From: Rhodococcus sp. 14-1411-2a
GTDB taxonomy: Bacteria; Actinomycetota; Actinomycetes; Mycobacteriales; Mycobacteriaceae
Assembly (NCBI RefSeq): GCF_002259485.1
Contig: NZ_NPGA01000009.1
Coordinates: 124,001-188,000 of the forward strand
Length of the DNA stretch: 64,000 nt
Direction: 5' to 3'
In this document: positions 6,235 to 24,198 of the stretch, in pieces
Layout of the letters: each line of letters opens with the position of its first letter
Numbering within the stretch: the stretch's first letter is position 1
The notes under the pieces: generated by a model
Databases searched by the model: none
What the model was told of the DNA's origin: nothing
The model's input: only the letters and a program-made list of their open reading frames with translations
Made by a program: the position numbers and the translations under genes

Positions 6235-6340
6235 AGAGGGTCTGGGGAGACTTTGGGTCGAAAAGGCACACTGCCAGCCGACCCTGAGTCGACGACGAGG
6301 CCGTCCGGTCTCGTGGTTAACGCGATCGGTGGAGGTTTCG

Positions 6341-6598
6341 ATGCAGACGCTCAATGCTCACGACGTGGTTCGAGTGCGAACCGTTCTGGAGAAATTCGGA
6401 AAGCTGCCGGTCCCCGTTGAGGGCATCGACGAAGCTGCCGATCTCTACGACAGCGGCCTCACCTCGCACGCCAGCGTCAACGTGATGATCGCGCTCGAGG
6501 ACGAGTTCGACGTCGAATTCCCCGACACCATGCTGCAGAAGTCGACGTTCGGCAGCATCAACGCGATCGCCGCGGCCATCGCCCAGCTGACGGACTGA
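6341..6598 (+). CDS. Acyl carrier protein, likely aminoacyl carrier
   Basis: This small acidic carrier protein (85 residues) has the phosphopantetheine attachment motif DSGL with Ser38, followed by helix II (ASVNVMIALEDEFDVEFPD). The ATG at 6341 has a good ribosome binding site (GGTGGAGG); a GTG at 6329 would add only four residues. It opens the large gene block, followed after 4 bp by an acyl-CoA dehydrogenase-like gene and then by an amino acid:carrier-protein ligase. In rhizobia such synthetase-like ligases charge exactly this kind of neighbouring small carrier, so the natural cargo is probably an amino acid rather than a fatty acid. Cargo identity is inferred. Confidence 0.85.
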   Translation: MQTLNAHDVVRVRTVLEKFGKLPVPVEGIDEAADLYDSGLTSHASVNVMIALEDEFDVEFPDTMLQKSTFGSINAIAAAIAQLTD

Positions 6599-6602
6599 GG
6601 CC

Positions 6603-7757
6603 ATGACCACCGTCTACGAGAGCTCGATCGACCAGTCGATCACCGACGTGCTGGCCGTACTGCGGACCTACGCCGACGAGGTCGATCGCGATGCCCGTTT
6701 TCCCACCGAATCGGTGGATGCGCTGCGCGACGCCGGCCTGCTCGGGGTCGGAATTCCGCGGGAGTTCGGCGGAGGCGGGGCAACACTGACCGACATAGCC
6801 CGGATCTCGCGCGCCCTCGGTGCCGAGTGCGCATCGACCGCGATGATCTTCGTGATGCACCAGTCACAGGTGCTCAGCATCGTCCGCCACGGCAAGTCCG
6901 ACGCCATGGCAGACCTGCAGCGTCGCATCGTGACCGATCGCATACTGGTGGCGTCGGCCACCACCGAGATCAACATCGGCGGAGACGTCCGCTCGAGCAG
7001 TTGTGCGGTGGAGTACGACGGTGAGCAGATCACGCTCAGCAAGAACGCACCGGTCATCTCCTACGGCGAGTACGCGCAGATCGTGTTGGCGACGGCGCGG
7101 CGCAGCGTCGACAGCCCGCCGAGCGATCAGGTGCTCGTGGTGTGCGAGAAGCCCGACGTGACGCTCGTCAAGACCGGCACCTGGGACACCCTCGGCTTTC
7201 GCGGCACCTGCAGCCCCGGCTTCATGCTGGACGCGCGCACAACGACGTCGAACATCCTGGGCGACAACTACGGCGACATCTCCGCTCAGACCATGCTTCC
7301 GGTAGCGCACGTGCTGTGGGGATCTGCGTGGCTCGGCATCGCCGACGCGGCGGTCACCAAAGCGCGCAAGTCGGTGCAGAAGGCCGCACGCAAGACTCCG
7401 GGAACGCCGCCGCCGAGCGCGCTGCGTCTCGCGGAGCTGATGGTGGTGCACGAGCAGTTGGTGGACACGGTGTTCGGTGCCGCAGCCAAGTTCGAGGCCG
7501 TCGCCGAGAGCCCCGCCGAGCTCGGAGCCATCGGGTTCGCGCTCAAGATCAACAACGTCAAGGTCACCGCGTCGACGCTCGTCATCGACATCGTCGGCAA
7601 GGCACTGCAGATCTGCGGCATCTCCGGGTACCGACAGGACGGCGAGATGAGCATCGGCCGTCATCTTCGGGACGCGCACGGGTCCGCGATCATGGTCAGC
7701 AACGAACGCATCCTGGGGCACAACGCCCAGCTCTCCCTCGTCTACAAGGGCAAATGA
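6603..7757 (+). CDS. Acyl-CoA dehydrogenase-family flavoprotein, probably acting on a carrier-bound thioester
   Basis: This 384-residue FAD flavoprotein of the acyl-CoA dehydrogenase superfamily has the usual order: N-terminal helices (LRDAGLLGVGIPREFGGGG), a middle beta-domain (DTLGFRGTCSPGF) and C-terminal helices. Near the C-terminus RHLRDA is retained, but the following IYEGT-type motif, which carries the catalytic Glu in most family members, reads IMVSNE, with Val365 in the Glu position. The base is therefore elsewhere or the chemistry differs. Because the gene lies between a carrier protein and its ligase, the substrate is probably the thioester on that carrier, as for the prolyl-carrier dehydrogenases of pyrrole pathways. 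Starts 4 bp after the carrier gene and overlaps the ligase by ATGA. Confidence 0.8.
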   Translation: MTTVYESSIDQSITDVLAVLRTYADEVDRDARFPTESVDALRDAGLLGVGIPREFGGGGATLTDIARISRALGAECASTAMIFVMHQSQVLSIVRHGKSDAMADLQRRIVTDRILVASATTEINIGGDVRSSSCAVEYDGEQITLSKNAPVISYGEYAQIVLATARRSVDSPPSDQVLVVCEKPDVTLVKTGTWDTLGFRGTCSPGFMLDARTTTSNILGDNYGDISAQTMLPVAHVLWGSAWLGIADAAVTKARKSVQKAARKTPGTPPPSALRLAELMVVHEQLVDTVFGAAAKFEAVAESPAELGAIGFALKINNVKVTASTLVIDIVGKALQICGISGYRQDGEMSIGRHLRDAHGSAIMVSNERILGHNAQLSLVYKGK

Positions 7758-8704
7758 TGACCACCACACACTCCGCACCGGAAACAGACATCAGCGAACT
7801 CGACTCGGCCCGAGCCGCTTTCCGCGCCGAGCTCGTCGACGCCGGCTTGCTGGTCCCCAGCTCGATCCCCGGATTGTACGGGCGCAGTGGCGAATTCGAG
7901 GACATCATCGAGTTCGTCGATGCCCGCGTCACCGAGGCAGGCGTCGCCGAACACGGCCGTCAGGCCACTCGATTCCGGTTCGCACCGGTCTTCCCTCGGG
8001 AAGCCTTCGAGCGCACCGACTACATCGCGTCGTTCCCCAACCTCACCGGCGCCATCAACACGTTCGAGGGCGACAACAAGGAACACGCTGCGTTGTTGGC
8101 GGAACGATCCGACGGCAAGGACTGGGATCACTTCCTGCATTCGGCGGGCACCATGCTGGTCTCGGCTGCCTGCCATCCTTCGTACTCGATGCTCACCGGC
8201 ACGCTGCCCGACGAGGGCACGCTGATGGACATCTACGGCTACTGCTTCCGGCACGAGCCCGCGGTGGATCCGGCTCGGATGCAGGCATTTCGGATGCACG
8301 AGTTCGTTCGAGTCGGCACCCCCGAAGACGCGATCGCACACCGCGAACGCTGGGTACCGCGCGGTCTTCAGGTGCTGGCAGATCTGGGGTTGGAAGCCGA
8401 GGCGGTCATCGCCAACGACCCGTTCTTCGGTCGCGCCGGACGCATGCTCGCGGCGAACCAGCGCAACGAGAACCTCAAGACCGAACTGGTAGTCAAGCTC
8501 TACGGAGATCTCGACGAGGGCACCGCGGTCGTCTCGTGCAACTGCCACCGCGATCACTTCGGGCACACCTTCGGCATCGAGACCGTCGACGGCGAACCGG
8601 CCCACAGCGCCTGCGTCGGCTTCGGCATGGAACGCATCGCCCTGGCGATGCTCCGCACCCATGGACTCGATCGATCGGCCTGGCCTGCCGCACTGCGCAA
8701 CTGA
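7754..8704 (+). CDS. Amino acid--[acyl-carrier-protein] ligase, SerRS-like
   Basis: The 316-residue protein resembles the catalytic core of atypical zinc-dependent seryl-tRNA synthetase without its tRNA-binding arm, the hallmark of amino acid:carrier-protein ligases described in Bradyrhizobium. These enzymes activate an amino acid (glycine or alanine in characterised cases) as the adenylate and load it on the phosphopantetheine of a small carrier. Visible features are zinc ligand candidates Cys140 (SAACHPSY), Glu183 (RMHEF, class II motif 2) and Cys287 (HSACVGFGMER, motif 3 with the conserved Arg). Their spacing fits the family. The start overlaps the dehydrogenase stop (ATGA), so the two are translationally coupled. 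An in-frame second ATG at 7757 is equally possible. The amino acid specificity cannot be read from sequence. Confidence 0.9.
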   Translation: MMTTTHSAPETDISELDSARAAFRAELVDAGLLVPSSIPGLYGRSGEFEDIIEFVDARVTEAGVAEHGRQATRFRFAPVFPREAFERTDYIASFPNLTGAINTFEGDNKEHAALLAERSDGKDWDHFLHSAGTMLVSAACHPSYSMLTGTLPDEGTLMDIYGYCFRHEPAVDPARMQAFRMHEFVRVGTPEDAIAHRERWVPRGLQVLADLGLEAEAVIANDPFFGRAGRMLAANQRNENLKTELVVKLYGDLDEGTAVVSCNCHRDHFGHTFGIETVDGEPAHSACVGFGMERIALAMLRTHGLDRSAWPAALRN

Positions 8705-8720
8705 TCGATACCGCTTCACC

Positions 8721-8734
8721 CGTGTACGTACACG
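8721..8734. promoter_or_regulatory. Perfect 14-bp palindrome before the fused hydrolase
   Basis: CGTGTACGTACACG is self-complementary across all 14 bases and lies in the 43-bp gap between the ligase and hydrolase genes, immediately before the ribosome binding site (AAGGA) of the GTG start at 8748. It could be an operator for an internal promoter, or an RNA hairpin that tunes translation or processing of the operon mRNA. No function is established. Confidence 0.4.
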
Positions 8735-8747
8735 AAGGACCAAACCT

Positions 8748-10520
8748 GTGAACAGTTCCCGCACCGCTCCCCGGCGCATCGGCTCAGTTCCCGCCGAGTC
8801 CTCTTCGCGTACGGCGGGCGGCAAGTACCCGATGTGGTTCGGCCCGGCCGACTCACCGCTGTTCGGCACCGTCCACGTGCCGTCCGGCGGTCGGGCGCGC
8901 GGCGGTGTGGTGCTGTGCCCACCACTGGGCAAGGAACAGGTCGATTCGTATCGCGGCATGACCCTGCTCGCGCAGAAGCTGTGTGCGCAGGGACTTCTGG
9001 TGCTGCGGTTCGACTATCGCGGCACCGGGGATTCGTGGGGCGATCAGGATCAGCCCGACGCGGTGGCGCACTGGCAGCGCAGCATCGTCGAAGCCGTCGC
9101 CTACGTTCGTGGTTGCGGGGTGAACGACGTCGGTCTCGTGGGTCTGCGCGTCGGTGCCTTGTTGGCGTGTTCGGTCGCCGCCGAGTGTGGCCCGCTCACC
9201 GCGATGACGCTGTGGGATCCGGTGGTCAGAGGACGGTCGTATCTGCACGAGCAGCGCGCGCTGTATTCGGTGAGCGTGACCACCGACTCCGACGCAGATC
9301 CCAGGGTGTCGATCATCGGCGCTGTGCTGCATCCCGATTCGGCTGCCGATTTCTCCGTGCTCGATGCCGCGAAGACGAGAACGGACGCGCCGGTGCTGGT
9401 GGCCACGCGCGCCGAGCGAGCCGATACCAAGCCCGTACGCAGGGTCGTCGAGACTCTCTCGGCTCAAGAACACATTCTGACCGCGCACGACGACTTTCTC
9501 GAGCCGAGTGATTTCGAGGTCGTCATCCCGACGTCCGACATCTCCTACCTCGCGACGTGGACGGCGTCGAAGTTCCCCGCGACGCCCGCGGCCGACGTCG
9601 CGGTGGAGCGTCGATCGCGATCAGTGGTCGACGGAATTCAGGAGAGCATCGAATACCTGGGCGCACAGCAGCTTTTCGCGATTCGGTCGTCCTCGGATCT
9701 GTGCCTGCCCGGTGGACCGACCGTGGTGTTGTATCCCACCGCCAACGAGCACCGTGTCGGTCCGGTCCGTATGTGGGTGGAACTGGCGCGGCTACTGCCT
9801 CGCTTCGGAGTGGCCACGGTGCGTTTCGATCGTCGCGGCACCGGCGAAAGCGGAACCGTGGCCGATACGGAGTTGACCCGGCTCTACAGCGACGAGGGCA
9901 ACGAGGATGCACTCACCGCCGTCCGGCAGTCGGGGTCGACCCCGGCCAACGTCCTGGTGGCCGGAATGTGCTCGGGCTCCTGGTATTCCAGCTTCGCCGC
10001 CCGGGAACTGGGGGTTCGTGCCGCAGTACTGCTCAACACCCTGGACTGGACCACTCGTCGACTCGAATTCGTCAAGCGTTCCTCGATGCACATCGAGGAG
10101 ACGGGACTGAAGGCTCGCGCACTCGACCGTCTGCACCACTGGGGTGTACGGACCAAGAATGCACTGCAGCCGCGAATCCCGTATGCCCTGTGGATCTGGC
10201 TCGGCCGGCGCGGATTGATCCAGGTTCCCGAGATCTCGTTGCGCATTCTCAGCGACCGCCGGGTGCAGACACGAGTTCTGCTCTCCCCCAACGACACCGC
10301 CTGGTTCGAGGCCAATCGGGGCCCGGAGGGAATGCGCCGGCTCCAGCGCCGATCGTCCGTGCCCACCGTCACCTCGTTCGAGTCCGGTGATCACTCGCTC
10401 TACGGTCGCGACCTGCGCGAGAACGTCCGAGCCGAACTTCTCGCGGCCACTGCTGCTGCGTTCGACCTCGAGATCACTGCTCCGTCGCCTCCCGTGCCGG
10501 TGGGGAAGGTTCGGTTGTGA
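8748..10520 (+). CDS. Tandem fused alpha/beta hydrolase, exosortase-associated hydrolase-like
   Basis: The 590-residue protein contains two alpha/beta hydrolase domains in tandem. Domain 1 (about 25-280) has LRFDYRGTGDS but reads GLRVG (132-136) at the nucleophile elbow, so Arg134 replaces the usual Ser. Domain 2 (about 300-580) has VRFDRRGTGES and GMCSG (406-410), placing Cys408 as nucleophile, with Asp and His candidates in SPNDTAWF and ESGDHSLYG. This pairing resembles the two separate hydrolases found in exosortase/exopolysaccharide loci. Domain 1 is probably structural or binding, domain 2 a possible thioesterase or acyltransferase acting on carrier- or glycan-bound groups. GTG 8748 is chosen over the upstream ATG because AAGGA precedes it. 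Overlaps the flippase by GTGA. Confidence 0.75.
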   Translation: MNSSRTAPRRIGSVPAESSSRTAGGKYPMWFGPADSPLFGTVHVPSGGRARGGVVLCPPLGKEQVDSYRGMTLLAQKLCAQGLLVLRFDYRGTGDSWGDQDQPDAVAHWQRSIVEAVAYVRGCGVNDVGLVGLRVGALLACSVAAECGPLTAMTLWDPVVRGRSYLHEQRALYSVSVTTDSDADPRVSIIGAVLHPDSAADFSVLDAAKTRTDAPVLVATRAERADTKPVRRVVETLSAQEHILTAHDDFLEPSDFEVVIPTSDISYLATWTASKFPATPAADVAVERRSRSVVDGIQESIEYLGAQQLFAIRSSSDLCLPGGPTVVLYPTANEHRVGPVRMWVELARLLPRFGVATVRFDRRGTGESGTVADTELTRLYSDEGNEDALTAVRQSGSTPANVLVAGMCSGSWYSSFAARELGVRAAVLLNTLDWTTRRLEFVKRSSMHIEETGLKARALDRLHHWGVRTKNALQPRIPYALWIWLGRRGLIQVPEISLRILSDRRVQTRVLLSPNDTAWFEANRGPEGMRRLQRRSSVPTVTSFESGDHSLYGRDLRENVRAELLAATAAAFDLEITAPSPPVPVGKVRL

Positions 10521-12193
10521 AGCACCGCGCTCCCAGGATTGCGCCACCCAAACACGAGCAGCTCGAACAACTTCGGTGGTACCCGGTCGAACCGGCGCGG
10601 TTCGACCTGGGCCTGATGAACAGCCCGACGATGCCGGTGCCGACCGTGCCTCGGCACAATCCCGTTCACTCGGTCGATGTTGCTGCCGACGTCGTCGAAC
10701 AGGCGACACCCGACACAGGACCGGGTTCGAAGGCGTCCGATCGCAACCTCGCGCTCAACTCGATGGCTCTGATGCTCTCGACGGCCATCACCGGCGCACT
10801 CGGCCTGCTGTTCTGGGCTGCGGCCGGTCGGCTCTATCCCGTGGCCGAGGTGGGCAGCGCGTCGGCGGTCATCACCTCCGCGGTGATGCTCTCCACGTTG
10901 TCCAATCTGAGCCTCGGTTCGATGTACGAGCGATTCCTGCCTATCTCGGGCCGGTTGGCCAAGTCGTTCATCGTGCGCGGCTACCTCACCGTCACCGCGT
11001 TCGCGTTCGTGCTCGGCGGCGGCTTCCTGCTGGTTGCGCCGGTGGACGAGATGTTCACCAACACCGCCGAAATCGTCTCGTTCCCGTTCTTCGTCGCAGT
11101 GCTCGCGGTGTTCGCGCTGCAGGATCAAACCTCCTCCGGCCTGGGCGTCGCCCGATGGGCGGCCGCCAAGAACGTCTTCCACGCCGTCTTCAAGTTCGTG
11201 TTGTTGTTGGCGCTCTTCTCGACCGAGCGCAGTACCTCGATCATCTCCGCCTGGGCCGTCCCCGCGATCGTGGCGTCGATCTTCGTCCTGCGCGCGATCC
11301 TGAAGAACGTCCGCACCGAACAGCGGTACGCAGGCAAGCCGGATCTGCCGCCCCGGCGTGAGATGTGGGCCTACTTCGGTTCGGCGTACGGCATCACCGC
11401 GCTCGGCTCGCTCGCTCCGCTGCTCGTGCCGATGATCGTCGTCGCCACCCTCGGTGCCGAGCAGAACGCCTACTTCTCGCTCACCTGGTCGATCGTCAGT
11501 GCTCTGTACATTCTGATCAGCGTGTTGATCGGACCGTACGTCGCCGAGGTCGCTGCCCACCCCGCGCAGTTCCACCGCCTGACGAAGCGGTTCATGACCC
11601 TGGTCTGCATCGTCGCGGTGGGTGGGTCGATCTTCCTGGCGTTCGTCGCGCCGTTCGGACTCGGCCTGATCGGCCAGGGTTATCGCGATCAGGGCACCAT
11701 CATCGTGCAGTTGGCCGCGCTGACCATCCCGCTCTCCGTCGTCGGTTCCCTGTACGACGGTTTGGCTCGGGTCCGTCGGCGCATGCGACTGGCCGTGATC
11801 GTGCAGGTGGTGGCCACCTCGATCATCATCGGCGGTTCGGTGGCACTGTCGTCGTCGATGGGCATCGCGGCCGTCGGCTGGGCGTACCTCGCCGCGGAGG
11901 CGTTCGGCGCACTCGTTCTGATCGTGCCGCTCGTCCGATGGATTCGTGAGCTGTCCGCAGGCAGCAACGGCGAGTCCGGTGACGACCAGGGCCCGTCGGG
12001 CTCCCCCGGACCTCGCGGGCCGATCGACGACAGCGATGCCCGTCCACCTCGATCCCGCCACGGAGAACCCCGACACGCCGAACCTCGGCACCGGGAACCG
12101 CCCCGTCGCGAGCCACAGGACGGCCGGCCGCAGCTCGACGAACCGTCACCGCGTCGCATCCCTGTCCACGCTCAACACAGGACGGCACCATGA
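10517..12193 (+). CDS. Wzx-type polysaccharide/lipid flippase
   Basis: The 558-residue protein has about twelve transmembrane segments between residues 80 and 480, starting SMALMLSTAITGALGLLFWAAAGR, and belongs to the MOP/MATE superfamily of lipid-linked oligosaccharide flippases. It would carry an undecaprenyl-linked saccharide across the cytoplasmic membrane. An unusual cytoplasmic N-terminal extension of about 75 residues and a hydrophilic, Arg/Pro-rich tail of about 75 residues flank the core. The GTG start overlaps the preceding stop codon (GTGA); an internal ATG at 10616 is the alternative. Its stop overlaps the next start by ATGA. The position among glycosyltransferases and a polytopic polymerase-like protein indicates a Wzx/Wzy-like export route. 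Confidence 0.85.
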   Translation: MKHRAPRIAPPKHEQLEQLRWYPVEPARFDLGLMNSPTMPVPTVPRHNPVHSVDVAADVVEQATPDTGPGSKASDRNLALNSMALMLSTAITGALGLLFWAAAGRLYPVAEVGSASAVITSAVMLSTLSNLSLGSMYERFLPISGRLAKSFIVRGYLTVTAFAFVLGGGFLLVAPVDEMFTNTAEIVSFPFFVAVLAVFALQDQTSSGLGVARWAAAKNVFHAVFKFVLLLALFSTERSTSIISAWAVPAIVASIFVLRAILKNVRTEQRYAGKPDLPPRREMWAYFGSAYGITALGSLAPLLVPMIVVATLGAEQNAYFSLTWSIVSALYILISVLIGPYVAEVAAHPAQFHRLTKRFMTLVCIVAVGGSIFLAFVAPFGLGLIGQGYRDQGTIIVQLAALTIPLSVVGSLYDGLARVRRRMRLAVIVQVVATSIIIGGSVALSSSMGIAAVGWAYLAAEAFGALVLIVPLVRWIRELSAGSNGESGDDQGPSGSPGPRGPIDDSDARPPRSRHGEPRHAEPRHREPPRREPQDGRPQLDEPSPRRIPVHAQHRTAP

Positions 12194-13470
12194 CTCAGAC
12201 CTATCGCGCCAGCTCACTGGACATGCTTCGGTCCGATTCGCGCATCGTGACCGTGCTGGGACCCGCGGACTTCGGTGATCTCGCACGAGTGCGGAGCCGG
12301 GTACTCGCACTGGCCTCGATCGGTCCTGCGACGCGGCTGGGCCTGCGCGCCGACCAGTCTTCGGTCGGCTGGGTCTACGAGCCGGAGCGGGTGGTCGAGC
12401 ACATCGTCGAGGGACCCGCCGTCGATCACGAGCAGTTGGCCAAGGAGCTCACCGAGTTCTCGCACGCGTCCGTTCCCGAGATCACTCTGCGGATCCGTCT
12501 GGCCGGTCGCTACCTGTTCCTCGATCTCAATCACGGTATCGGCGACGCTCTGTTGCCGGTCGACCTGTTCGCCTACTTGGCCGACGCACGTCCCGACGCC
12601 CCGCTCCCGGCGTGGGCGAGTAGGCCCGTCGACGGTCATCCTCTCCGAAAAGCACTGTTGCGCTGGATCGTTCGAAATCCCAGGAAAGTCTTGGACACGA
12701 TCCACGACCGCGTTCGTCCCGGCCCGAACCCGGAATACGCAGCCACCGCGCCTGCGCCGGACACCGCGTCGCCGACGGCATTTCGGCCGTGGGCACCGTC
12801 CGCGGCGGTGGCCACCGTGGTGACGCAGTCGGGTACCACCGATGCGATCCGGCGGTGGCGGGAATCCCACCTGCCCGGCGCGAGCGTCAGCGCGGTGATG
12901 TGTGCCGCCGTGGCTGCGGCGTTCGCGCGCACGTCGTTATCGCTCGATCGTTCCGCGGCGTTTCTGTTCGACTGCCGCCGCTACCTTCCGCCGTCGACGG
13001 TGGTGCTCGGCAACTTCGCAGCCGGGATCCGTTTCTCCGATATCGATCCAACCTCGGCTGGCGAGGTGCACGGGGCATTGTCCGGTGCCATCGCCAAGGG
13101 CCGTCCCATCGCATCCGCGACGATCAGCACCATCAAGTACAAGCGTGAACACAAGGCCGTCTCCGGGGTGTCAGCAGACCGAGTTCCGGTTCGCCCCAGA
13201 GTTCAGCTCATGTACTCCGATCTCGGTAGGGTCAGGCAGTTGGAGCAGGTCTCCTGGGTTGCCGAGCCCGCCGACCGCGCCTTCTTCGTGATCGCCGATC
13301 CGGGACTACCGGAGTCGGTGATGATCACGATGGAGACCATCGGTTCGGTCGTGTTCGTCTCGGCGTCGTTCCACGACAATGTTTTCGATCGCCACACAGT
13401 GCAAGCCGCACTCGATCTCGTAGCAGCGAACCCCCTCGCATTGCTGGCCCCTCAGGAGAAGACCGCATGA
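12190..13470 (+). CDS. HxxxD acyltransferase of the condensation-domain/PapA superfamily
   Basis: The 426-residue protein has the catalytic signature HGIGD (His115, Asp119) in the context LFLDLNHGIGDALLPVD, as in nonribosomal condensation domains and PapA-type acyltransferases. These move an acyl or aminoacyl group from a carrier-protein thioester to an amine or hydroxyl. The C-terminal half contains VMITMETIGSVVFVSASFHD, matching the usual conserved floor-loop region and terminal helix. As the only such enzyme in an operon containing a carrier protein and its ligase, it is the best candidate for transferring the carrier-bound group to the saccharide. Both ends overlap neighbouring genes by ATGA. 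The acceptor is inferred. Confidence 0.75.
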   Translation: MTQTYRASSLDMLRSDSRIVTVLGPADFGDLARVRSRVLALASIGPATRLGLRADQSSVGWVYEPERVVEHIVEGPAVDHEQLAKELTEFSHASVPEITLRIRLAGRYLFLDLNHGIGDALLPVDLFAYLADARPDAPLPAWASRPVDGHPLRKALLRWIVRNPRKVLDTIHDRVRPGPNPEYAATAPAPDTASPTAFRPWAPSAAVATVVTQSGTTDAIRRWRESHLPGASVSAVMCAAVAAAFARTSLSLDRSAAFLFDCRRYLPPSTVVLGNFAAGIRFSDIDPTSAGEVHGALSGAIAKGRPIASATISTIKYKREHKAVSGVSADRVPVRPRVQLMYSDLGRVRQLEQVSWVAEPADRAFFVIADPGLPESVMITMETIGSVVFVSASFHDNVFDRHTVQAALDLVAANPLALLAPQEKTA

Positions 13471-15154: not shown

Positions 15155-15201
15155 GACCCCGCTCCACCTGCCCGTACGTGTCACCCGAAAGGACCCTCCC
15201 C

Positions 15202-16488: not shown

Positions 16489-18718
16489 TTCCGGATACCG
16501 GTCCATCGCAGATCTGCGGCACAAGCTGTTCGTTCCGTCCGACTGGACCGATTGGCCCGTCGGCACCACCGACTCCGCCGCAGGCACACGGCGGCGCGCG
16601 GGTAGCCGATTGCGCTACTCCGACATCAGCGTCCTCGCCGCCCTGTCCGGCCTGGCCTCGATGATCGCGCTGCCGACGCTGGTTCGCGTCGTGCTTCTGA
16701 CGGTCCTGCTGTTCTTCGGACCCGGTGCCGCGATCCTGTCGTGGGTGCGCATCCCGCGCACCGCGGTTCCTGCCGCCCTGCCGATTCTGAGTATCTCGGT
16801 GGTGACACTGATGGTGTCGGCGGCGATGTGGGGCTACCGCTGGTCGCCCCGGATGTGGACGTTGTGGCTGTGCCTGGCCCTGATCGGCTCGTCGGTGCTC
16901 TGGTACCGCAAGCACGGCCGTCCCGACCTGCCGGTCTGGGTGGCGCAGGCACGTGAGGTCGTCTCGCCGTCGTCGCGAACGTCCGCCCTCGCTTCCGTGA
17001 AATTCGCTCTGACCGACCGAGAGACGTTGCGACGCAATGTTGCCGGCCTGATTCTGGCGTTGGCGTTCTTTCTGTGGCTGCCGTTGTTGCCCGGTCTCGA
17101 GCGCGCAACGTACTCGCAGTTCGGGCTGCTGACCGCCGGAACCGGCCCTGGTTTGGTGCTGTGCATGGTGCTGATCATGGCGGCGTTCCTGATCGCGCTG
17201 CGGCGTCATCAGCTGCGCACCATGCTGCTCGCCATCGGCCTGGCCATCGTGGTGCAGCGATTCACCGTCACCCTCGTCACCTCCGCTCCGATCTACGACT
17301 GGACGTACAAGCACGTCGCCGTCACCGAGTTCGTGCTCGATCTGAACCGACTGGCTCCGAGCGGCGTCGACATCTACAGCGAGTGGCCCAGCTTCTTCCT
17401 CGTCTCGGCCTGGTTCCAGCACGTCACCGGATACGACACGCTGGCTCTGGCGCACGTGTTCGCGCCGATGATCCACGTGGTGCTCGCGGCGGCCGTCTAC
17501 GGACTGGCGCGGGTCATGAAGTTCGACAAACGCGCCGCGATCACGGCGGCGATGCTCGCCGAGGTCATCAACTGGGTGGGCCAGGACTACTACTCACCGC
17601 AGGCGTGGGCCGTTCTGCTCGCCGTGGGCTTCCTGGCGCTGCTGATGTCCTCCTCGCTCACCCGGTCCGCGGCGTTCCTGTCGATCGTTCCGTTCGCGGC
17701 GCTGGTCCCCACGCACCAGCTGACGCCGTACTGGCTGATGGCCGTCACCGGCGTGCTGCTGGTGACGCGGCGAGCCAAGCCGTGGTGGTTGATGATTCCT
17801 CTCGGGATCATCCTGCTCGGATACCTGTATCCGCGACTGCCGATCGTGGCACCGTACGGACTCTTCCAGGGGTTCGACCCCGTACAGAACGCCGCGAGCA
17901 ACGTCGAGGCGGAGGGCGTGCTCGGCAAACAGATCACGTCCCTGGTCTGCCGCGCACTGTCCGGCGGGGTGTTCGTGCTGGCGTTCGTCTCGGCGATCTA
18001 CGCCTGGCGTACCAAGAAGACGTTCTGGGCACCGATGGTGATGGCGTTCGGATCGATCATGCTGCTCGCCGGGCAGAGCTACGGCGGCGAAGCGATCTTC
18101 CGGGTGTACCTGTACGCGATTCCCGGCTGCGTGCTGTTGATCACGCCGCTGTTCCTGGCCCTGTTCGATCGCAAGCCCTCCCAGGATCGCCCGTCCCGGG
18201 CCCGCAGGCTCACCGCCCGGACATCGGTTGCGGTCGCGACGGCCGGGGCTCTCGGCAGTGCCGTGCTGGGCTTGCAGAGCTACTTCGGCCTGTGGCCGAT
18301 CGTGCTCGAACACCGCGACCAGATCGACGACGCCCGCGCGGTCGCCGCACAGTCACCGTCCGGCACCGCGGTCACGATGCTGTACTCCTCGGGCTACCCG
18401 GCCCGGTCGACGTCGGACTACGGGCGCCTGACGGAGGCCAACGAGTACTGGGACGTCCCGCTCTACGCGCTGGGCCCCGAGTACATGGAAGGCTTCCCGA
18501 CGCCGGAGAAGCTCGGCCAGATCGATTACAACGCGTCGGTCAGCGACACACCCACCTACATGGTCCTGACCCGTCAGTCGCTCGAGGCGATGCAGTACTA
18601 CGGGTTCGTCGCCGACGATGCGGTCGCACGTTTCCGGCAGTGGCTCGCCACCAACTCGGCGTGGTCGGTGCGGTATCAGGACACCAACACGATCGTCTAC
18701 CAGTACCGATCGCGTTGA
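16469..18718 (+). CDS. Large polytopic membrane protein, GT-C or polymerase-like
   Basis: This 749-residue protein has about twelve to fourteen membrane helices between residues 50 and 620, and a soluble C-terminal domain of about 130 residues. The overall plan (extended luminal loop NRLAPSGVDIYSEWPSFFL after an early helix, THQLTPYW between later helices, soluble end) resembles GT-C glycosyltransferases and Wzy-like polymerases that use lipid-linked sugars outside the membrane. No diagnostic motif fixes which. It starts 20 bp inside the preceding GT2 gene and closes the long operon; a 219-bp A+T-rich spacer follows. It is the best candidate in the cluster for polymerisation or extracytoplasmic glycosylation. 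Shared transmembrane character alone would also allow other roles. Confidence 0.65.
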   Translation: MNLSSTDSGYRSIADLRHKLFVPSDWTDWPVGTTDSAAGTRRRAGSRLRYSDISVLAALSGLASMIALPTLVRVVLLTVLLFFGPGAAILSWVRIPRTAVPAALPILSISVVTLMVSAAMWGYRWSPRMWTLWLCLALIGSSVLWYRKHGRPDLPVWVAQAREVVSPSSRTSALASVKFALTDRETLRRNVAGLILALAFFLWLPLLPGLERATYSQFGLLTAGTGPGLVLCMVLIMAAFLIALRRHQLRTMLLAIGLAIVVQRFTVTLVTSAPIYDWTYKHVAVTEFVLDLNRLAPSGVDIYSEWPSFFLVSAWFQHVTGYDTLALAHVFAPMIHVVLAAAVYGLARVMKFDKRAAITAAMLAEVINWVGQDYYSPQAWAVLLAVGFLALLMSSSLTRSAAFLSIVPFAALVPTHQLTPYWLMAVTGVLLVTRRAKPWWLMIPLGIILLGYLYPRLPIVAPYGLFQGFDPVQNAASNVEAEGVLGKQITSLVCRALSGGVFVLAFVSAIYAWRTKKTFWAPMVMAFGSIMLLAGQSYGGEAIFRVYLYAIPGCVLLITPLFLALFDRKPSQDRPSRARRLTARTSVAVATAGALGSAVLGLQSYFGLWPIVLEHRDQIDDARAVAAQSPSGTAVTMLYSSGYPARSTSDYGRLTEANEYWDVPLYALGPEYMEGFPTPEKLGQIDYNASVSDTPTYMVLTRQSLEAMQYYGFVADDAVARFRQWLATNSAWSVRYQDTNTIVYQYRSR

Positions 18719-18747
18719 TCTCGTCACAAACTATGACGTGAATCTCC

Positions 18748-18769
18748 AAACAATCTCCCAGTTGGTTTG
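18748..18769. promoter_or_regulatory. Operator candidate before the second GT unit, matches the site at 6213-6234
   Basis: AAACAATCT opens a 22-bp element ending GGTTTG, with CAAAC/GTTTG arms. It aligns base for base in its first nine positions, and in the GTTT block, with the element at 6213-6234. TTGACA at 18778-18783 just downstream is a possible -35 box. The surrounding 219-bp spacer is clearly more A+T-rich than the coding sequence. Confidence 0.55.
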
Positions 18770-18937
18770 TTCGCGGCTTGACAAACTCGTAGCTTCTTTT
18801 AAGCTTGCTTTCAGTCAAAGGAAACAGGTTCTTACGCTTGAGAACGAGCGTTATGACACTGTCTGTGGATGCGGCGGGGGTCGATTCACGGAGTTCGGAG
18901 ACATCTGCCCATCGCACTCGACCCATGTGGAATGGAT

Positions 18938-19789
18938 ATGTTGAATCGTCAGAATCCCCGCGTCAGTGTCGTCATCCCGACGCTCAACGAGGCCGCGAAC
19001 CTTCGTCACGTCCTCCCCTTGCTCTCGCACGACTACGAGCTCGTGCTGGTCGACGGTGGATCCGTCGACGGCACCATCGACGCGGCGCGGGAGATCCGCG
19101 GTGACATTCGCATCATCAAGCAGACCCGCAAGGGCAAGGGCAACGCTCTCGCCTGCGGCTTCGAGGCCGCTACCGGCGACATCATCGTCATGTTCGACGC
19201 CGACGGTTCCGCCGATGCCGCCGAGATCCCGCGCTTCGTCGACGCCCTGATCGCCGGTGCCGACTTCGCCAAGGGCAGCCGGTTCTGCGAGGGTGGCGGA
19301 AGCCACGACATCACCCCGCTGCGCCGCGCAGGCAACGGTGGCCTGCACCTGGTGGCCAACACCCTCTTCGGGACTCGCTTCTCGGATCTCTGCTACGGCT
19401 ACAACGCCTTCTGGCGCGACCTGGTGCCGGTGCTGGATCTCCCCGTCGTCGATCAGCCCGGTGCCGAGGGCATGATGCTCTGGGGCGACGGTTTCGAGAT
19501 CGAGACCATCATCAACTGCCGCTTCGCCGAGGCGTCCGTGCGCATCGAAGAGGTGCCGAGCGTCGAATTGGCTCGCATCTACGGTCAGAGCAATCTGCGC
19601 ACCTTCTCCGACGGCTTCCGGGTGCTGCGCACGCTGATGACCGAGCGCATGCGTGCCCGCAGGATCAAGCGCAAGTCCATCGTTCGGCCGTTGCGAGAGT
19701 CGGTCGACGCCCGCACCGACATGGACCTCGAGTTCGAGGCCCTGGAGTCGTACAACGAGGTTCTCGAACTCCGCGAGAAGACGGCGTGA
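18938..19789 (+). CDS. GT2 glycosyltransferase, polyprenyl-phosphate glycosyltransferase-like
   Basis: The 283-residue GT-A protein resembles DPM1/polyprenyl-phosphate mannosyltransferases: VSVVIPTLNEAANL at the start, LVLVDGGSVDGT, the donor motif IVMFDADGSADAAE, and FEIETIINCRFAEA near the end. Members place a single sugar on a polyprenyl phosphate, giving a donor for extracytoplasmic GT-C enzymes; the large polytopic protein immediately upstream could be the user. No membrane helix is evident. ATG 18938 is chosen because GGAAT lies before it and the homology starts just after; ATG 18932 is possible. The stop overlaps the next start (GTGA). Confidence 0.85.
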   Translation: MLNRQNPRVSVVIPTLNEAANLRHVLPLLSHDYELVLVDGGSVDGTIDAAREIRGDIRIIKQTRKGKGNALACGFEAATGDIIVMFDADGSADAAEIPRFVDALIAGADFAKGSRFCEGGGSHDITPLRRAGNGGLHLVANTLFGTRFSDLCYGYNAFWRDLVPVLDLPVVDQPGAEGMMLWGDGFEIETIINCRFAEASVRIEEVPSVELARIYGQSNLRTFSDGFRVLRTLMTERMRARRIKRKSIVRPLRESVDARTDMDLEFEALESYNEVLELREKTA

Positions 19790-20748
19790 GTCTGCCGACT
19801 TCCTCGGTCGTCATCTGCGCGTACACCCTGGCTCGGTGGTCCGAACTACAGGCTGCCGTGCGTGCCGTCCTCGATCAGGTCGTTCCGGCGGACGAACTGA
19901 TCATCGTCATCGATCACAATGCGCAACTGGCCGAACGTGCGCGTGAGGAGTTCTCGCCGCTACACCGGACCGTGAACGTGGTGGAGAACAACCACCCACG
20001 TGGCCTCTCCGGAGCGCGCAACACCTCGCTCGACCTCGCGACCGGTGAGATCGTCGTCTTCTTGGACGACGACGCCTCACCGCGCACCTCAGAGTGGCTC
20101 GGAGCCATTCTGTCCCATTACTCGGACGATGCCGTGTACGCCGTTGGGGGCTCTGCATACCCGGTATGGCCGGACAAGCGTCCGGCCTTCTTACCGGCCG
20201 AGGTAGTGGGTGAACCCGGCGAACTCGATTGGGTCGTCGGGTGCACCTACCGCGGGCAGCCAACGGAAACCGCTCAGGTCCGCAATCTCATGGGCGCGAA
20301 CATGTCGTTCCGCCGTGAGCCCGTCGTCGCACTCGGCGGGTTCGTCTCCGGCATCGGCCGGATCGGTCGAGTGCCGCTCGGTTGCGAGGAGACGGAGCTG
20401 TGCATCCGTCTGCGTCAGACGCATCCCGACGCCCAGATCGTGTTCGATCCCTCGATCGTCGTCGATCACACCGTCAGCGCAGATCGAACTCGTCCGCGCT
20501 ACCTCATCACGCGCAGCTACGCCGAGGGCGTATCGAAGGCAGCGATCGCCCGGTTGATCGGGGCCGAGGACGCACTGTCCTCCGAGCGGGCATACACCGC
20601 CAAGATTCTTCCTCGCGCGGTCGGCCGGGAGACCAGCGCAGCGGCTCGCGGCAATCCCGTGCGCGCCTGGGGTGCGATGGCCGTGGTGGCCAGCGTCGGT
20701 GCAGCCGGAATCGGCTATGCCCGAGGAAGACTCAGTACGAGCCGCTAG
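19786..20748 (+). CDS. GT2 family glycosyltransferase
   Basis: The 320-residue protein has SSVVICAYTLARW, LIIVIDHNAQL, GLSGARNTSLDLA and the donor motif VVFLDDDASPRTSEW, followed by RNLMGANMSFRRE and the acceptor-side CEETELCIRLRQ. This order is typical of GT2 enzymes that extend lipid-linked oligosaccharides. One weak hydrophobic segment is present near the C-terminus (WGAMAVVASVGAAGIGY), so it may be peripherally anchored. The GTG start overlaps the preceding stop by GTGA. It ends 28 bp from the convergent GH2 gene across a shared hairpin. Confidence 0.85.
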   Translation: MSLPTSSVVICAYTLARWSELQAAVRAVLDQVVPADELIIVIDHNAQLAERAREEFSPLHRTVNVVENNHPRGLSGARNTSLDLATGEIVVFLDDDASPRTSEWLGAILSHYSDDAVYAVGGSAYPVWPDKRPAFLPAEVVGEPGELDWVVGCTYRGQPTETAQVRNLMGANMSFRREPVVALGGFVSGIGRIGRVPLGCEETELCIRLRQTHPDAQIVFDPSIVVDHTVSADRTRPRYLITRSYAEGVSKAAIARLIGAEDALSSERAYTAKILPRAVGRETSAAARGNPVRAWGAMAVVASVGAAGIGYARGRLSTSR

Positions 20749-20765
20749 CGGCACGTGCACAGAAC

Positions 20766-20783
20766 CTCGTAGTCCACTACGAG
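20766..20783. terminator. Hairpin terminator, CTCGTAGT type
   Basis: An 8-bp arm CTCGTAGT (20766-20773) pairs with ACTACGAG (20776-20783), leaving too small a loop for all pairs, so about seven close. It overlaps the stop codon of the convergent GH2 gene and follows the GT2 stop, so it can end both transcripts. It shares stem sequence and flanking GCACGTG with the hairpin at 746-767. Confidence 0.65.
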
Positions 20784-23197
20784 TTACCGCTCACGACCTT
20801 CGGTGCCACCGAGGCCCTCTCCACGGAGTTCAACGCGCGCACGTGTCCGCGCGGTACACCCCCGCCGCGACCGACGAGCGTCAGCGTACGAGGTTCGTTC
20901 GGTGCCAGGTGGAACCACGAGTCGGATACCTCGAAGCCGTCGATGTCGACGCAGACGTACTGCGCCGGCCAGTCGGATCGGACGGTCAGTTCCCATGTTC
21001 CAGAATCTTTTTCGACAACATTCGCCGTCAGCCCCACCGTGTTCTGACGACTCTGCACGCCGACGAGCGCGGTGGATCGCGCCGCCTCGACGCCGCTGTC
21101 GTCCAGAAACAGGACCGTGACGGCGGAGTAGGTGCGGCTGCCGAAGCGGTAGGCGTGGTTGACGTCGGTGAACGTGCCGACGATGGAATCCACCGTCAGT
21201 GCGATGGATCCGTTCGCCGGGGCGCTCACCGTGCGTTCGAACTCGTGGCTGCCGCGGGAGGCGTGCAGCACCACTCGAACGGTGCCCGATCGCGCCGGCC
21301 CGTCGTTGACCAGTTCCACCGAATAGCCGTCGAGTCCGTTGTCGGACAACAGCAGTGCCACCGGGGCGCTGGCCCGCGCCAACGCGTAGAAGGGGGCCTT
21401 GCGCACACCGGCGGTGTCGACGATGCCCCAGCCCGCACCGGCGACGGTGTCTCGCAGCGTCAGCACGAGGGCTCCGGCGCACCCCGAGGATGCTCGACGC
21501 CAGTGGCCGAACGCTTCGATGAACGCTTCGACGATCGCCGCCCTACCGTAATCGAGATACAGCTCTGCATCGTCGCGCCGGATCAGGTGTGGATCGACGC
21601 CGAAGATCGTGCGTACGTAGTGATCGCGCACGTCCTCGAAATCCCAGGACGAGCCGCGGTCACGTGGGACGGCGGCCTTCCAGTCGGGGTGGTGACCGGC
21701 AACGGCCGCGGACCCGAAGAACTTCTCCACCTGCGCCCGTTCCGGGGGAACTGCGAAGGCCAGGCACTCCGCCGCGAAACGTACTCCGGCAGTGCGGATA
21801 TCGGACAGTGGTCGGAGATAGCCGCCCACCCCGAAGTAGTGTGCGATACCGTCGCCCACGTGAGTGTGCAGTTCGCCGCTCACGCTGGACGGGCTCGATG
21901 TCACGTAGGCGACTCCGGGTACACGATCGGCGAGAAAGTTGGGAACGATGCTGTCCAGCATCACCATTCGCTGGTCCTCGGCTGCGAGTCCCAACATCGT
22001 GGGCTGCTGCTGCGTCTCGCTTCCACCACTGACAACCATCAGGGCAGGGTTGGCCGAGACCGTGTCGGCGAACGCGTCGAGCTCGCGGGTGACCGCTGCG
22101 GTGTACGTATCGTCGGTGGGCGGGTCGACGGTGCCGAACATGACGTCCTGCCACACCATGATGCCCAATTCTGCACACAGGGACCAGAATTCGGTCTGCT
22201 CGTACACCAGGGTGCCGACGATGCGCACCATGTTCAGACCCGCCGATCGGAGCTGCACGAGCGCCGCCCGCAGCTCGGGCTCGGGCGACCACAACCGCAC
22301 CGGGTCCAGCGGGGTCCACGTTCCTCCGCGGCAGAAGACGGTCTCGTCGTTGACCGTCAGTACTGCGCCGCCTGCCGTACGGTCCAGCTCTACCGTACGA
22401 AAACCGACGACGCCCAGGGGATGGACGGTGCCGTCGACCTCGAGCGCCACGCGATACGTTAGCGGTCGGCCGTGTGTATGGGGCCACCAGAGTTCGACGT
22501 CGGGCAGCGTCACCGCTGTGTCGACGCGCTCGACCCTGCCGAGCTCGAAGGCCCTGTCGTCGATCAGGATTCGAGCCACCCCGGGAGCGCCCAGGTCGGC
22601 GCGCAGTGTGACGATGCCGTCGGTTCCCGATACTTCCGTCGTCAGGTCGACGCGACGCACGTCGGGGATGGGGGTCATCGTCACCGGACGCCACGGTCCG
22701 ACGGGTACCGGAAGGGGTCCGTACACGGGTGCGCGACCGAGCATCGTCGTTCGCTCGTGTCGCAGCCCCTGCGCGGCGATCAGTGACGATCGCCACCGAC
22801 CGCGGGGGCGTCGGGACTTCAGTTGAGCTGCAAGCGATTCGATGTGGACGGCGATGGTGACGGTGTCACCGCAGTCCGGCAGATCGAGGGTCTCGGGAAC
22901 GAACATCGACGTCACGGTTCTGCGATGGACGCCATCGATCCAGATCCGGGCGCGGGTCGCGATGCCGCCGAAGCGCACTCGCACCCGGCGATGGTCACCG
23001 GTGGAGACGTGAGTGACGAACCACCAGTCGTGCTCGTCGGGGTCCACTGCGAGTGAGTGTCCGAGCGCAGTGGCAACCGTGCCCGGCACCACCGCGTCGA
23101 CCCAGTCGAGATCGTCTCCTAGGTCGGCAGGGTCGAGAACAGAGCCGGCGTCGGTTCGGGCCAGCCGCCACCGAGCGCCGTCGAGCAGATCGATCAC
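20777..23197 (-). CDS. GH2-family beta-mannosidase-like protein with altered catalytic motif
   Basis: The 806-residue protein has the GH2 layout: N-terminal jelly roll (RVRVRFGGIATRARIWIDG), immunoglobulin-like domain, TIM barrel from about 285 (CRGGTWTPLDP), and C-terminal beta domains. In mannosidase-type GH2 enzymes the acid/base Glu lies in a GNNE-type motif; here the region reads VVSGGSE, keeping Glu394 but with Ser393 replacing Asn. The probable nucleophile is Glu477 (RFAAECLAFAVPP). No signal peptide is evident, so it may act in the cytoplasm on intermediates. The GTG start overlaps the DUF1839 stop (GTGA). It is either an exo-beta-mannosidase of unusual active site or a divergent transglycosidase. 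Confidence 0.8.
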   Translation of the reverse strand: MIDLLDGARWRLARTDAGSVLDPADLGDDLDWVDAVVPGTVATALGHSLAVDPDEHDWWFVTHVSTGDHRRVRVRFGGIATRARIWIDGVHRRTVTSMFVPETLDLPDCGDTVTIAVHIESLAAQLKSRRPRGRWRSSLIAAQGLRHERTTMLGRAPVYGPLPVPVGPWRPVTMTPIPDVRRVDLTTEVSGTDGIVTLRADLGAPGVARILIDDRAFELGRVERVDTAVTLPDVELWWPHTHGRPLTYRVALEVDGTVHPLGVVGFRTVELDRTAGGAVLTVNDETVFCRGGTWTPLDPVRLWSPEPELRAALVQLRSAGLNMVRIVGTLVYEQTEFWSLCAELGIMVWQDVMFGTVDPPTDDTYTAAVTRELDAFADTVSANPALMVVSGGSETQQQPTMLGLAAEDQRMVMLDSIVPNFLADRVPGVAYVTSSPSSVSGELHTHVGDGIAHYFGVGGYLRPLSDIRTAGVRFAAECLAFAVPPERAQVEKFFGSAAVAGHHPDWKAAVPRDRGSSWDFEDVRDHYVRTIFGVDPHLIRRDDAELYLDYGRAAIVEAFIEAFGHWRRASSGCAGALVLTLRDTVAGAGWGIVDTAGVRKAPFYALARASAPVALLLSDNGLDGYSVELVNDGPARSGTVRVVLHASRGSHEFERTVSAPANGSIALTVDSIVGTFTDVNHAYRFGSRTYSAVTVLFLDDSGVEAARSTALVGVQSRQNTVGLTANVVEKDSGTWELTVRSDWPAQYVCVDIDGFEVSDSWFHLAPNEPRTLTLVGRGGGVPRGHVRALNSVERASVAPKVVSGNS

Positions 23198-24198
23198 GTG
23201 CCCAATGCACCTGCAACGATGTCCATGGCGGCAGCCCAGTTCTTGCTCATCTCGATCAGCGGCTCGTCGAGCACCACATCCCGGCCACGTGCGGCGCGCG
23301 CCATCCGGAATTGAACGGCCTTGGCGCCGGAGGCGGCATCGAGGAAGTGCGGCGCTGCCGCAGCGGCTCCCGTGATGCCACGACCTTCGAGGTAGTGCAC
23401 GTAGTTCGCCGCCAGTTCTGCCGTGGCACCGAATTGCCGGAGCAGGCCGAACGACCAGAGGTGGAATGCGTCGGGTCCCGCAGTCTGTACGAGCGGGATA
23501 TCGGCGACGATGCGGCGAGCCAGAGCGTCGACAGGGTTGCCAGGAGCTCGACGCGCCAGATGAGCGCGAGCGACGTCGAGGTCTCGATCACCGAAACCCG
23601 CGTCGAGTACTGCAGGATCCACTCGAATCTGCTCGACGTAGGGCAGCAGCACCTCCGCGTGCGGCTCGGGGGCGAGATTGAATATCCCGTCGAAGTCGGC
23701 TCCGGTGAGCTCGAAATAGCCGCGGTTGTGGAAGTACCCCATCACCTTGGCGTCGCGATCGACGAGATTCGGCACGATGGTGGTCTTGGTGTGCTGGTTG
23801 CGATAGCTGGTTCCCGCCGTGTCGGGCAGCCAGAATCCGTCGACCTCCACGGTGACGTGGATGCCGTCTTCCAGGCCTTCGACGACGTGCTCGAGTACGG
23901 GACGCCACACGTTCATCTCGGCGACGCCGATGCCGTACAGGCTGCGTAGGTCCTCGGGGGCGATCTTCACGAAATCCCACTGTCGACCGTCGCATCCGGC
24001 ACTCAGCACGAAGGCGAGAGCCGGAGTGGGATCTGCACCGAACGAGTGCAGAACTTCGATCCACAGGTCGACGTAACAGTTGGTCTCGGTCCAAATGCGG
24101 TCGTGATTGTGTATCGGGTGTGGTCGGTAACCGATGGGTTCGAGTTCGAGGACTCGTAGGCTGGTACCGAGCCTGTCCAGCACTGCATCGTTCGACAT
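23194..24198 (-). CDS. DUF1839 family protein
   Basis: The 334-residue protein has no signal peptide or membrane helix. Its opening (YRPHPIHNHDRIWTETNCYVDLWIEVLHSFG) and internal motifs FVLSAGCDGRQWDFVKI and QHTKTTIVPNLVDRD match DUF1839, a family of unknown biochemistry. My recollection is that DUF1839 genes accompany carrier-protein ligases of the SerRS-like type in rhizobial loci, which fits its place here. A good ribosome binding site (GGAGAGG) precedes the ATG. It is the first gene of the convergent two-gene unit with GH2. A role in acting on the carrier-bound aminoacyl group is possible but unproven. Confidence 0.8.
   Translation of the reverse strand: MSNDAVLDRLGTSLRVLELEPIGYRPHPIHNHDRIWTETNCYVDLWIEVLHSFGADPTPALAFVLSAGCDGRQWDFVKIAPEDLRSLYGIGVAEMNVWRPVLEHVVEGLEDGIHVTVEVDGFWLPDTAGTSYRNQHTKTTIVPNLVDRDAKVMGYFHNRGYFELTGADFDGIFNLAPEPHAEVLLPYVEQIRVDPAVLDAGFGDRDLDVARAHLARRAPGNPVDALARRIVADIPLVQTAGPDAFHLWSFGLLRQFGATAELAANYVHYLEGRGITGAAAAAPHFLDAASGAKAVQFRMARAARGRDVVLDEPLIEMSKNWAAAMDIVAGALGT

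Follow-up and report, generated by a model that had tools for sequence, protein, structure and literature searches.

We analysed a window of 64,000 nucleotides from Rhodococcus sp. 14-1411-2a (assembly GCF_002259485.1, contig NZ_NPGA01000009.1, positions 124,001 to 188,000) and studied the 14 genes at positions 6329-24198 of it. An initial annotation had read this block as a single glycan cluster without a described counterpart. Our comparison of gene neighborhoods indicated that the 18-kb block is a mosaic, in which a widely shared module is joined to a genus-level cassette. The module comprises a carrier protein (CP), an acyl-CoA-dehydrogenase-like flavoprotein (ACDH), an amino acid:[carrier protein] ligase resembling seryl-tRNA synthetase (SerRS), a DUF1839 protein and a GH2-like enzyme, usually accompanied by an alpha/beta hydrolase fusion (ABH). 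The core is probably a CP-dependent aminoacylation module for an amino sugar, in which the ligase would charge the CP, the flavoprotein may act on the bound group, and DUF1839 would deliver this group to the amino sugar. The counterpart of this core chemistry is the lincosamide synthetase, and the earlier claim was thus too wide.

To define the natural unit, the NF005479 profile was used to locate the ligase, and 67 of the 201 Mycobacteriaceae genomes searched contained it. Forty loci were retrieved and their neighbors compared, and a genome-wide scan gave 80 named ligase loci. The ligases of Rhodococcus sp. 14-2483-1-2 and 06-462-5 were 97% identical to that of the window, and further close ligase loci were found in Rhodococcoides kroppenstedtii and R. 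trifolii, which places the source of the window within the Rhodococcoides clade of Rhodococcus. We found that the CP, ACDH, ligase, GH2 and DUF1839 genes stayed together while the other neighbors changed. The order CP-ACDH-ligase-DUF1839-GH2-(ABH) recurred in Actinobacteria, Acidobacteria metagenome-assembled genomes (MAGs), Planctomycetes, Azospirillum, Bosea, Thiomonas, Burkholderiales and gammaproteobacterial MAGs, and a Myxococcales MAG held an incomplete copy that ran into the end of its contig. The same six genes were present on annotated plasmid records of Azospirillum brasilense Sp7 and Mycetohabitans rhizoxinica. A Rhizobium leguminosarum plasmid (L153:7578-12555) carried a short form, CP-ACDH-ligase-DUF1839, followed by a GH2 remnant and an IS5 element. 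Within the window's genus, the module was accompanied by two unrelated layouts. The window type, ABH-WZX-HXXXD-DUF998-GH16-GT2a-POLY-GT2b-GT2c, was kept in at least 14 Rhodococcoides loci, and the other (L033, L035-L037 and L039) consisted of GT4 enzymes, a Pfam-positive Wzx, another glycosyltransferase and a Wzz. The ligase module thus moves as a block between unrelated glycan cassettes even within one genus; therefore, the single system is the CP-ACDH-ligase-DUF1839-GH2 set, usually with ABH, and not the whole 18 kb.

The DUF1839 gene (23194-24198, minus strand) and the GH2 gene (20777-23197, minus strand) had been regarded as the tail end of the cluster, but the locus counts placed both in the core of the module. 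Over 92 ligase loci, the two genes were both present in 65 and both absent in 27, so that GH2 occurred in 65/65 loci with DUF1839 versus 0/27 without it. This count scores DUF1839 as present in 14 window-type loci in which the retrieved sequence stopped short of the gene; six of them were confirmed by genome scan, and the exclusion of all 14 left 51 versus 27 loci. At the genome level, DUF1839 was detected in 47 of the 201 family genomes, all 47 of them ligase-positive, at a distance of no more than 14.5 kb from the ligase. The chance of such nesting was about 10^-29.5, a value not corrected for phylogeny. In a phylum-wide sample of 396 genomes, all three genomes with DUF1839 were among the 10 ligase-positive ones. 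The distance matrices of six proteins from 41 complete loci showed correlations of 0.64-0.93, in which species relatedness is still included, and the highest value was that of the DUF1839-GH2 pair.

The structural evidence concerned DUF1839 itself, which matched PF08893 with E=5e-103 and 345 bits (cut-off 22.5). An AlphaFold (AF2) model of the window protein, built with 31 relatives, reached a predicted local distance difference test (pLDDT) score of 92 and a predicted template modeling (pTM) score of 0.89. According to VIA-align, the best match to this model was CcbD, with a Z of 19.6, 288 residues aligned over the full length and a root-mean-square deviation of 3.3, followed over most of the chain by AziU2/U3 (Z 17.5) and CtaG (Z 16.9). 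The top 14 matches were all CcbD, AziU2/U3 or CtaG (Z 16-20), and the next entry had a Z of 8.1. Foldseek agreed, ranking the same proteins first with alignments that covered almost the entire chain. CcbD did not appear when the PDB was searched by sequence with the DUF1839 profile; it was recovered by the fold search only. CcbD reportedly works by a ping-pong mechanism with a triad like that of cysteine proteases: CP-bound proline is first moved to the Cys and from there to the thiooctose amino group, and the CP is docked through Arg312-Arg324 near the C-terminus (PMC12945683). Genetic evidence is available for LmbD (PMC4351081).

DUF1839 had been predicted independently to adopt a papain-like fold and to carry a C-(T/S)-H triad (PMC10318531), and no other paper in the literature searched mentioned the family. 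The window protein both exceeded the PF08893 cut-off and carried this triad. Residues C41, T140 and H157 were at least 95% conserved in an alignment of 64 sequences. Compared with the Cys-His-Glu triad of CcbD, the positions of His and Thr/Ser were swapped, and the CcbD order was not found. The PDB entry titles of CtaG (9qvk, 9qvo and 9qvs) give C11, H128 and D144 as the mutated residues. In addition, K293, Q296 and R301 were conserved on the penultimate helix of DUF1839 (278-303), which, by chain distance and not by superposition, may correspond to the CP-docking helix of CcbD. The modeled fold and these residues suggest that DUF1839 is a candidate CcbD-type carrier-protein aminoacyltransferase. 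In one Rhodococcus genome (G195), the DUF1839 gene was interrupted by an in-frame TAG (L063:6933-7898), which represents a pseudogene or a sequencing error.

A hydrolytic role of DUF1839 was also considered, in which the protein, as a thioesterase, protease or amidase, would remove or edit aminoacyl groups, while ABH would be the true transferase. Papain-like folds are mostly hydrolytic, and the ABH gene (8661-10520, plus strand, likely start 8832; 562-619 aa), which the initial annotation had missed, occurred at a similar frequency with and without DUF1839 (50/65 and 22/27 loci). Its product joins two domains, of the 'exosortase A hydrolase 2' (TIGR03101) and 'hydrolase 1' (TIGR03100) types. 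The two exosortase A system hydrolases thus match the two ABH domains, with the differences that they are fused here and fall below the curated cut-offs. The C-terminal domain carries a Cys nucleophile, C437 in GMCSG, together with H578, both at least 95% conserved in 78 sequences, and the N-terminal domain lacks a Ser nucleophile. No exosortase gene was seen near ABH, and a literature search linking exosortase-A hydrolases with carrier proteins gave nothing useful. However, the nearest structures of DUF1839 were all carrier-protein-pathway enzymes, none of them hydrolases, and 15 loci kept DUF1839 without a nearby ABH. CtaG transfers or condenses acyl groups, and AziU2/U3 build a ring. We consider a hydrolytic DUF1839 improbable and the transferase assignment preferable.

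The donor side of the proposed reaction is formed by the ligase and the CP. The ligase (7754-8704, plus strand) scored 433 bits against NF005479 (cut-off 357) and matched the structures of Bradyrhizobium Bll0957 with E=2e-71 to 7e-69, which places it in the same family. It has 316 aa (family expectation about 310-350 aa), and its SerRS match was restricted to the SerRS C-terminal core, without the tRNA-binding domain. The Zn-ligand positions C139, E182 and C286 were invariant in 11 ligase sequences aligned to Bll0957, whose ligands we take to be Cys131, Glu176 and Cys279. Members of the family are expected to load Gly or Ala on a CP. A CP gene was found near the ligase in 90 of the 92 loci. 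In the window, it lies at 6329 (or 6341) to 6598 on the plus strand, and its product matched PF00550 (E=2e-8) and NF005480 (103 bits, cut-off 72), with the phosphopantetheine site Ser46 in GLTSHA. Ser46, Glu57 and Glu63 were at least 95% conserved in 108 sequences, and a 4'-phosphopantetheinyl transferase gene (family k6, PF01648) often adjoined the CP gene in relatives. The gene adjoining that of Bll0957, bll0958, encodes an acyl-CoA dehydrogenase (PMC10888616), which means that the gene neighborhood is partly shared with the reference ligase. Published work has assigned no biological role to these ligases, according to a review (PMC9437257). Their structures were solved more than a decade ago, and the present reading, if true, would give the family its first concrete job; to what is known of Bll0957 and its CP, it adds a candidate transferase and a likely class of acceptor.

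Two further observations concern the ligase. A second paralogue was present in two genomes of a Tsukamurella-like genus (g30; L056 and L070), with no detectable adjoining CP or transferase. Selenocysteine in the Tsukamurella ligases was rejected, as the reported in-frame TGA was merely the C-terminal stop.

The ACDH (6603-7757, plus strand; PF02771/PF00441) keeps the acyl-CoA dehydrogenase (ACAD) fold, as judged by sequence families, and distantly resembles the prolyl-PCP dehydrogenases RedW and PigA. A catalytic Glu was seen neither at the SCAD/MCAD nor at the IVD position in HMMER alignments to 5ol2 and 7p98 that were inspected by eye. Ordinary alpha,beta-dehydrogenation is therefore not assured.

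We next compared the module with known systems. The lincosamide synthetase (adenylation domain LmbC/CcbC, carrier LmbN/CcbZ and LmbD/CcbD) is alike in having a free-standing activating enzyme, a CP and a CcbD-fold cysteine transferase, and it likewise links an amino acid to an amino sugar through an amide, the type of product expected for the module. The module differs in using a SerRS-like ligase instead of the adenylation domain of a non-ribosomal peptide synthetase (NRPS), in its extra flavoprotein, GH2 and ABH, in its C-T-H rather than C-H-E triad and in its frequent location in exopolysaccharide loci, and the likeness of DUF1839 to CcbD is at the fold level only. CtaG (closthioamide) and AziU3/AziU2 (azinomycin), which share the fold over most of DUF1839 with Z of about 17, are secondary-metabolite enzymes of other pathways. 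Mycothiol MshC is a tRNA-synthetase-like enzyme that makes an aminoacyl-amino sugar; it differs from the module in being a class I CysRS relative that uses no carrier protein. This enzyme is also listed in PMC9437257. BtrH of the butirosin pathway is a papain-like acyl-ACP:aminoglycoside acyltransferase that moves an acyl group from a CP to an amino sugar (PMC10318531); it belongs to PF14399, a different family from that of DUF1839, and was compared by description only.

Based on these comparisons, the following mechanism is proposed, in the order that we infer for its steps. A phosphopantetheinyl transferase would convert the CP to its holo form. The ligase, by its family membership, would use ATP to activate a small amino acid and load it onto the CP, and the ACAD-fold flavoprotein might then alter the loaded aminoacyl group, with oxidation as one example. 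DUF1839 would accept the aminoacyl group on Cys41 and transfer it to an amino sugar, whose amine would become an amide; this step is proposed because of the full-length structural match, the invariant Cys and His, and the conserved basic C-terminal helix at the presumed CP-docking position of CcbD. The GH2-like enzyme would act in the cytoplasm on a glycoside bearing the aminoacylated sugar, and ABH, through its Cys nucleophile, could catalyze an additional acyl-transfer or editing reaction that depends on a thioester. In Rhodococcoides, the GT2 enzymes would then incorporate the modified sugar into a lipid-linked glycan, for which the genus-specific membrane cassette would provide export, and in other genera the same module would feed other glycan loci. 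The ties of DUF1839 to the ligase and to CcbD reduce an open question to one reaction for three purified proteins.

The role of the GH2-like enzyme was approached through its active site. The protein matched the beta-mannosidase-like structure 6bye (E=1e-25), and the catalytic residues E394 and E477, aligned to 6bye, were at least 95% conserved in 60 sequences. The Asn that usually precedes the acid/base Glu in beta-mannosidases was mostly replaced by Ser (GGSE in most relatives, GGNE in few). The presence of Ser with both Glu kept suggests an unusual sugar in the active site. No transmembrane-like segment was detected in GH2 by hydropathy, in agreement with its predicted cytoplasmic location.

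The glycan setting was evaluated by the position of PF02397 initiating sugar transferases. Of the 67 ligase-positive genomes, at least 36 had a PF02397 gene no more than 25 kb from the ligase, compared with about 1.7 expected from copy number, which supports a glycan setting in Mycobacteriaceae. In other genera, the module was paired with unrelated Wzx/Wzy-type glycan loci. The initial annotation, which placed ligase and CP inside a saccharide export locus, was right in that the two occur in glycan loci far more often than by chance; the window type, described below, is an exception with regard to PF02397. An aminoacylated sugar, which the initial annotation had also proposed, was the best-supported product, and in the window's genus the aminoacyl-amino sugar most likely enters an exported glycan. 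Alternatively, the module may make a small diffusible aminoacyl-amino sugar, similar to mycothiol or the lincosamides, with the glycan neighbors supplying the sugar or merely co-locating. The module is self-contained in Azospirillum, Mycetohabitans and gammaproteobacteria, the CcbD substrate is a small sugar, hydropathy revealed one transmembrane-like segment in the core enzymes, namely in ABH, and a glycosidase in the core would fit the release of a free product. An argument against this reading is that most Mycobacteriaceae have genes for an initiating sugar transferase, Wzx, Wzz and GT4 enzymes around the ligase, far more often than chance would give. We regard a diffusible product as unlikely and retain the exported glycan as the more likely destination.

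Several observations weigh against a glycan-directed aminoacylation module. Twenty-seven of the 92 ligase loci lack DUF1839, which means that the ligase does not need it, and the association counts include shared ancestry without correction. The shared fold does not fix the acceptor, and to our knowledge CtaG and AziU3, which have the same fold, do not act on sugars. The C-T-H order of the DUF1839 triad is unlike that of CcbD and CtaG. Window-type loci have no nearby PF02397 gene, the nearest being about 165 kb away, which on paper leaves the glycan pathway at these loci incomplete. The copies in Azospirillum, Mycetohabitans and some gammaproteobacteria have no adjacent glycan-export genes. 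In favor of the module, a free-standing NRPS condensation domain was more frequent at the loci without DUF1839 (7/27, versus 1/65 with DUF1839), which may hint that one CP-dependent transferase replaces another; the contrast is weak because close relatives are among the seven loci. Free-standing condensation domains stood beside the ligase in the glycan loci L052, L057, L058, L059, L061, L069, L071, L072, L109, L113 and L115, and some of them were extended at the C-terminus by a segment that matches the end of an adenylation-type ligase.

The ligase, the CP and the DUF1839 fold were each already known singly. We found no paper describing the module, its spread or the link between DUF1839 and CcbD, in a search that reached few subscription papers. 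A wider proposal, which we advance tentatively, is that a widespread, unnamed module, its order kept across at least four phyla, uses a tRNA-synthetase-derived ligase, a CP and a CcbD-fold transferase to decorate amino sugars in cell-surface glycans with an amino acid, probably in oxidised form, by a route distinct from the Dlt, tRNA-dependent and NRPS routes.

The remainder of the block forms the genus-specific cassette. The plus strand carries CP, ACDH, the ligase, ABH, WZX, HXXXD, DUF998, GH16, GT2a, POLY, GT2b and GT2c, and the minus strand DUF1839 and GH2. Profile matches confirmed the CP, the flavoprotein, the ligase, GH16, the three GT2 enzymes, GH2 and DUF1839 of the initial annotation, whose gene list was otherwise right but omitted DUF998 in addition to ABH. 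The three transcription units that it had described were recovered at 6329-18718 (plus), 18869-20748 (plus) and 24198-20777 (minus), with the genes mostly joined by 4-nt overlaps of stop and start codons. Two of its functional labels could not be confirmed. WZX (10517 or 10616 to 12193, plus strand), described as a Wzx-type flippase, is a polytopic membrane protein with 11 transmembrane-like segments by hydropathy, within the 10-14 of Wzx flippases. No flippase profile, including PF01943 and PF13440 of Pfam, matched it significantly, and its own profile showed only a weak match to bona fide Wzx (E=0.008, probability 5%). HXXXD (12190-13470, plus strand), described as an HxxxD acyltransferase, contains HGIGD, an HGxGD motif in which H115, G116 and D119 were invariant in eight relatives. 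Sequence and profile searches gave no Pfam or PDB match for this putative acyltransferase, its profile showed no similarity to the true condensation-domain family k25, and an AlphaFold model built with eight close relatives had a pLDDT of 33.

Among the other cassette genes on the plus strand, DUF998 (13467-14177) encodes a membrane protein (PF06197, E=7e-11), and GH16 (14174-15154; PF00722, E=4e-16) has an N-terminal membrane anchor with a transmembrane-like segment at 38. POLY (16469-18718) is a large polytopic protein with nine transmembrane-like segments, possibly a polymerase or of GT-C type; it gave a sub-threshold EpsG/Wzy hint only (E=0.2) and no PDB match. The glycosyltransferases GT2a (15178-16488; E=2e-25), GT2b (18869-19789) and GT2c (19786-20748; E=2e-18) all matched PF00535. 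GT2b resembles polyprenyl-phosphate glycosyltransferases, its best NCBIfam matches being AglJ and a dolichyl-phosphate hexose transferase, both below their cut-offs; judged by sequence, it could be an alternative starter of the lipid-linked sugar. Relatives of GT2a, GT2b and GT2c with 50-60% identity were also located 3' of the module in two other genera (L049 and L062-L064).

These data bear on whether the whole 18 kb is one co-evolved system, in which the HXXXD enzyme and not DUF1839 would transfer the carrier-bound group. The genes at 6329-18718 do form a single operon with overlapping genes, and this layout recurs in the Rhodococcoides loci mentioned above. However, the HXXXD/DUF998/GH16/POLY set was found only in Rhodococcoides among the loci compared and was absent from several species within the genus, and WZX, likewise missing from several of these species, had only one distant relative outside the genus, in a Micrococcales MAG. 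The fold of HXXXD is unconfirmed, and the mobility of the module, which shifts between unrelated cassettes or stands without adjacent export genes, partly refutes a single system, as the initial annotation had itself foreseen for ligase and carrier genes moving apart from the glycan genes. We consider this reading very improbable, even more so than a hydrolytic DUF1839, and the mosaic of module and cassette remains the preferred description.

On either side of the locus lie genes for divergent Hsp70/MreB-like proteins, three in all, at 2520-4448, 4642-6090 and 25517-26875 on the minus strand. Relatives of these proteins adjoined the module in 25/25 loci of the window's genus, with either glycan cassette. 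Just upstream of the module are an alanine dehydrogenase gene (790-1872, minus strand) and a divergent Lrp/AsnC regulator gene (1989-2513, plus strand); the former could be relevant if the loaded amino acid is alanine.

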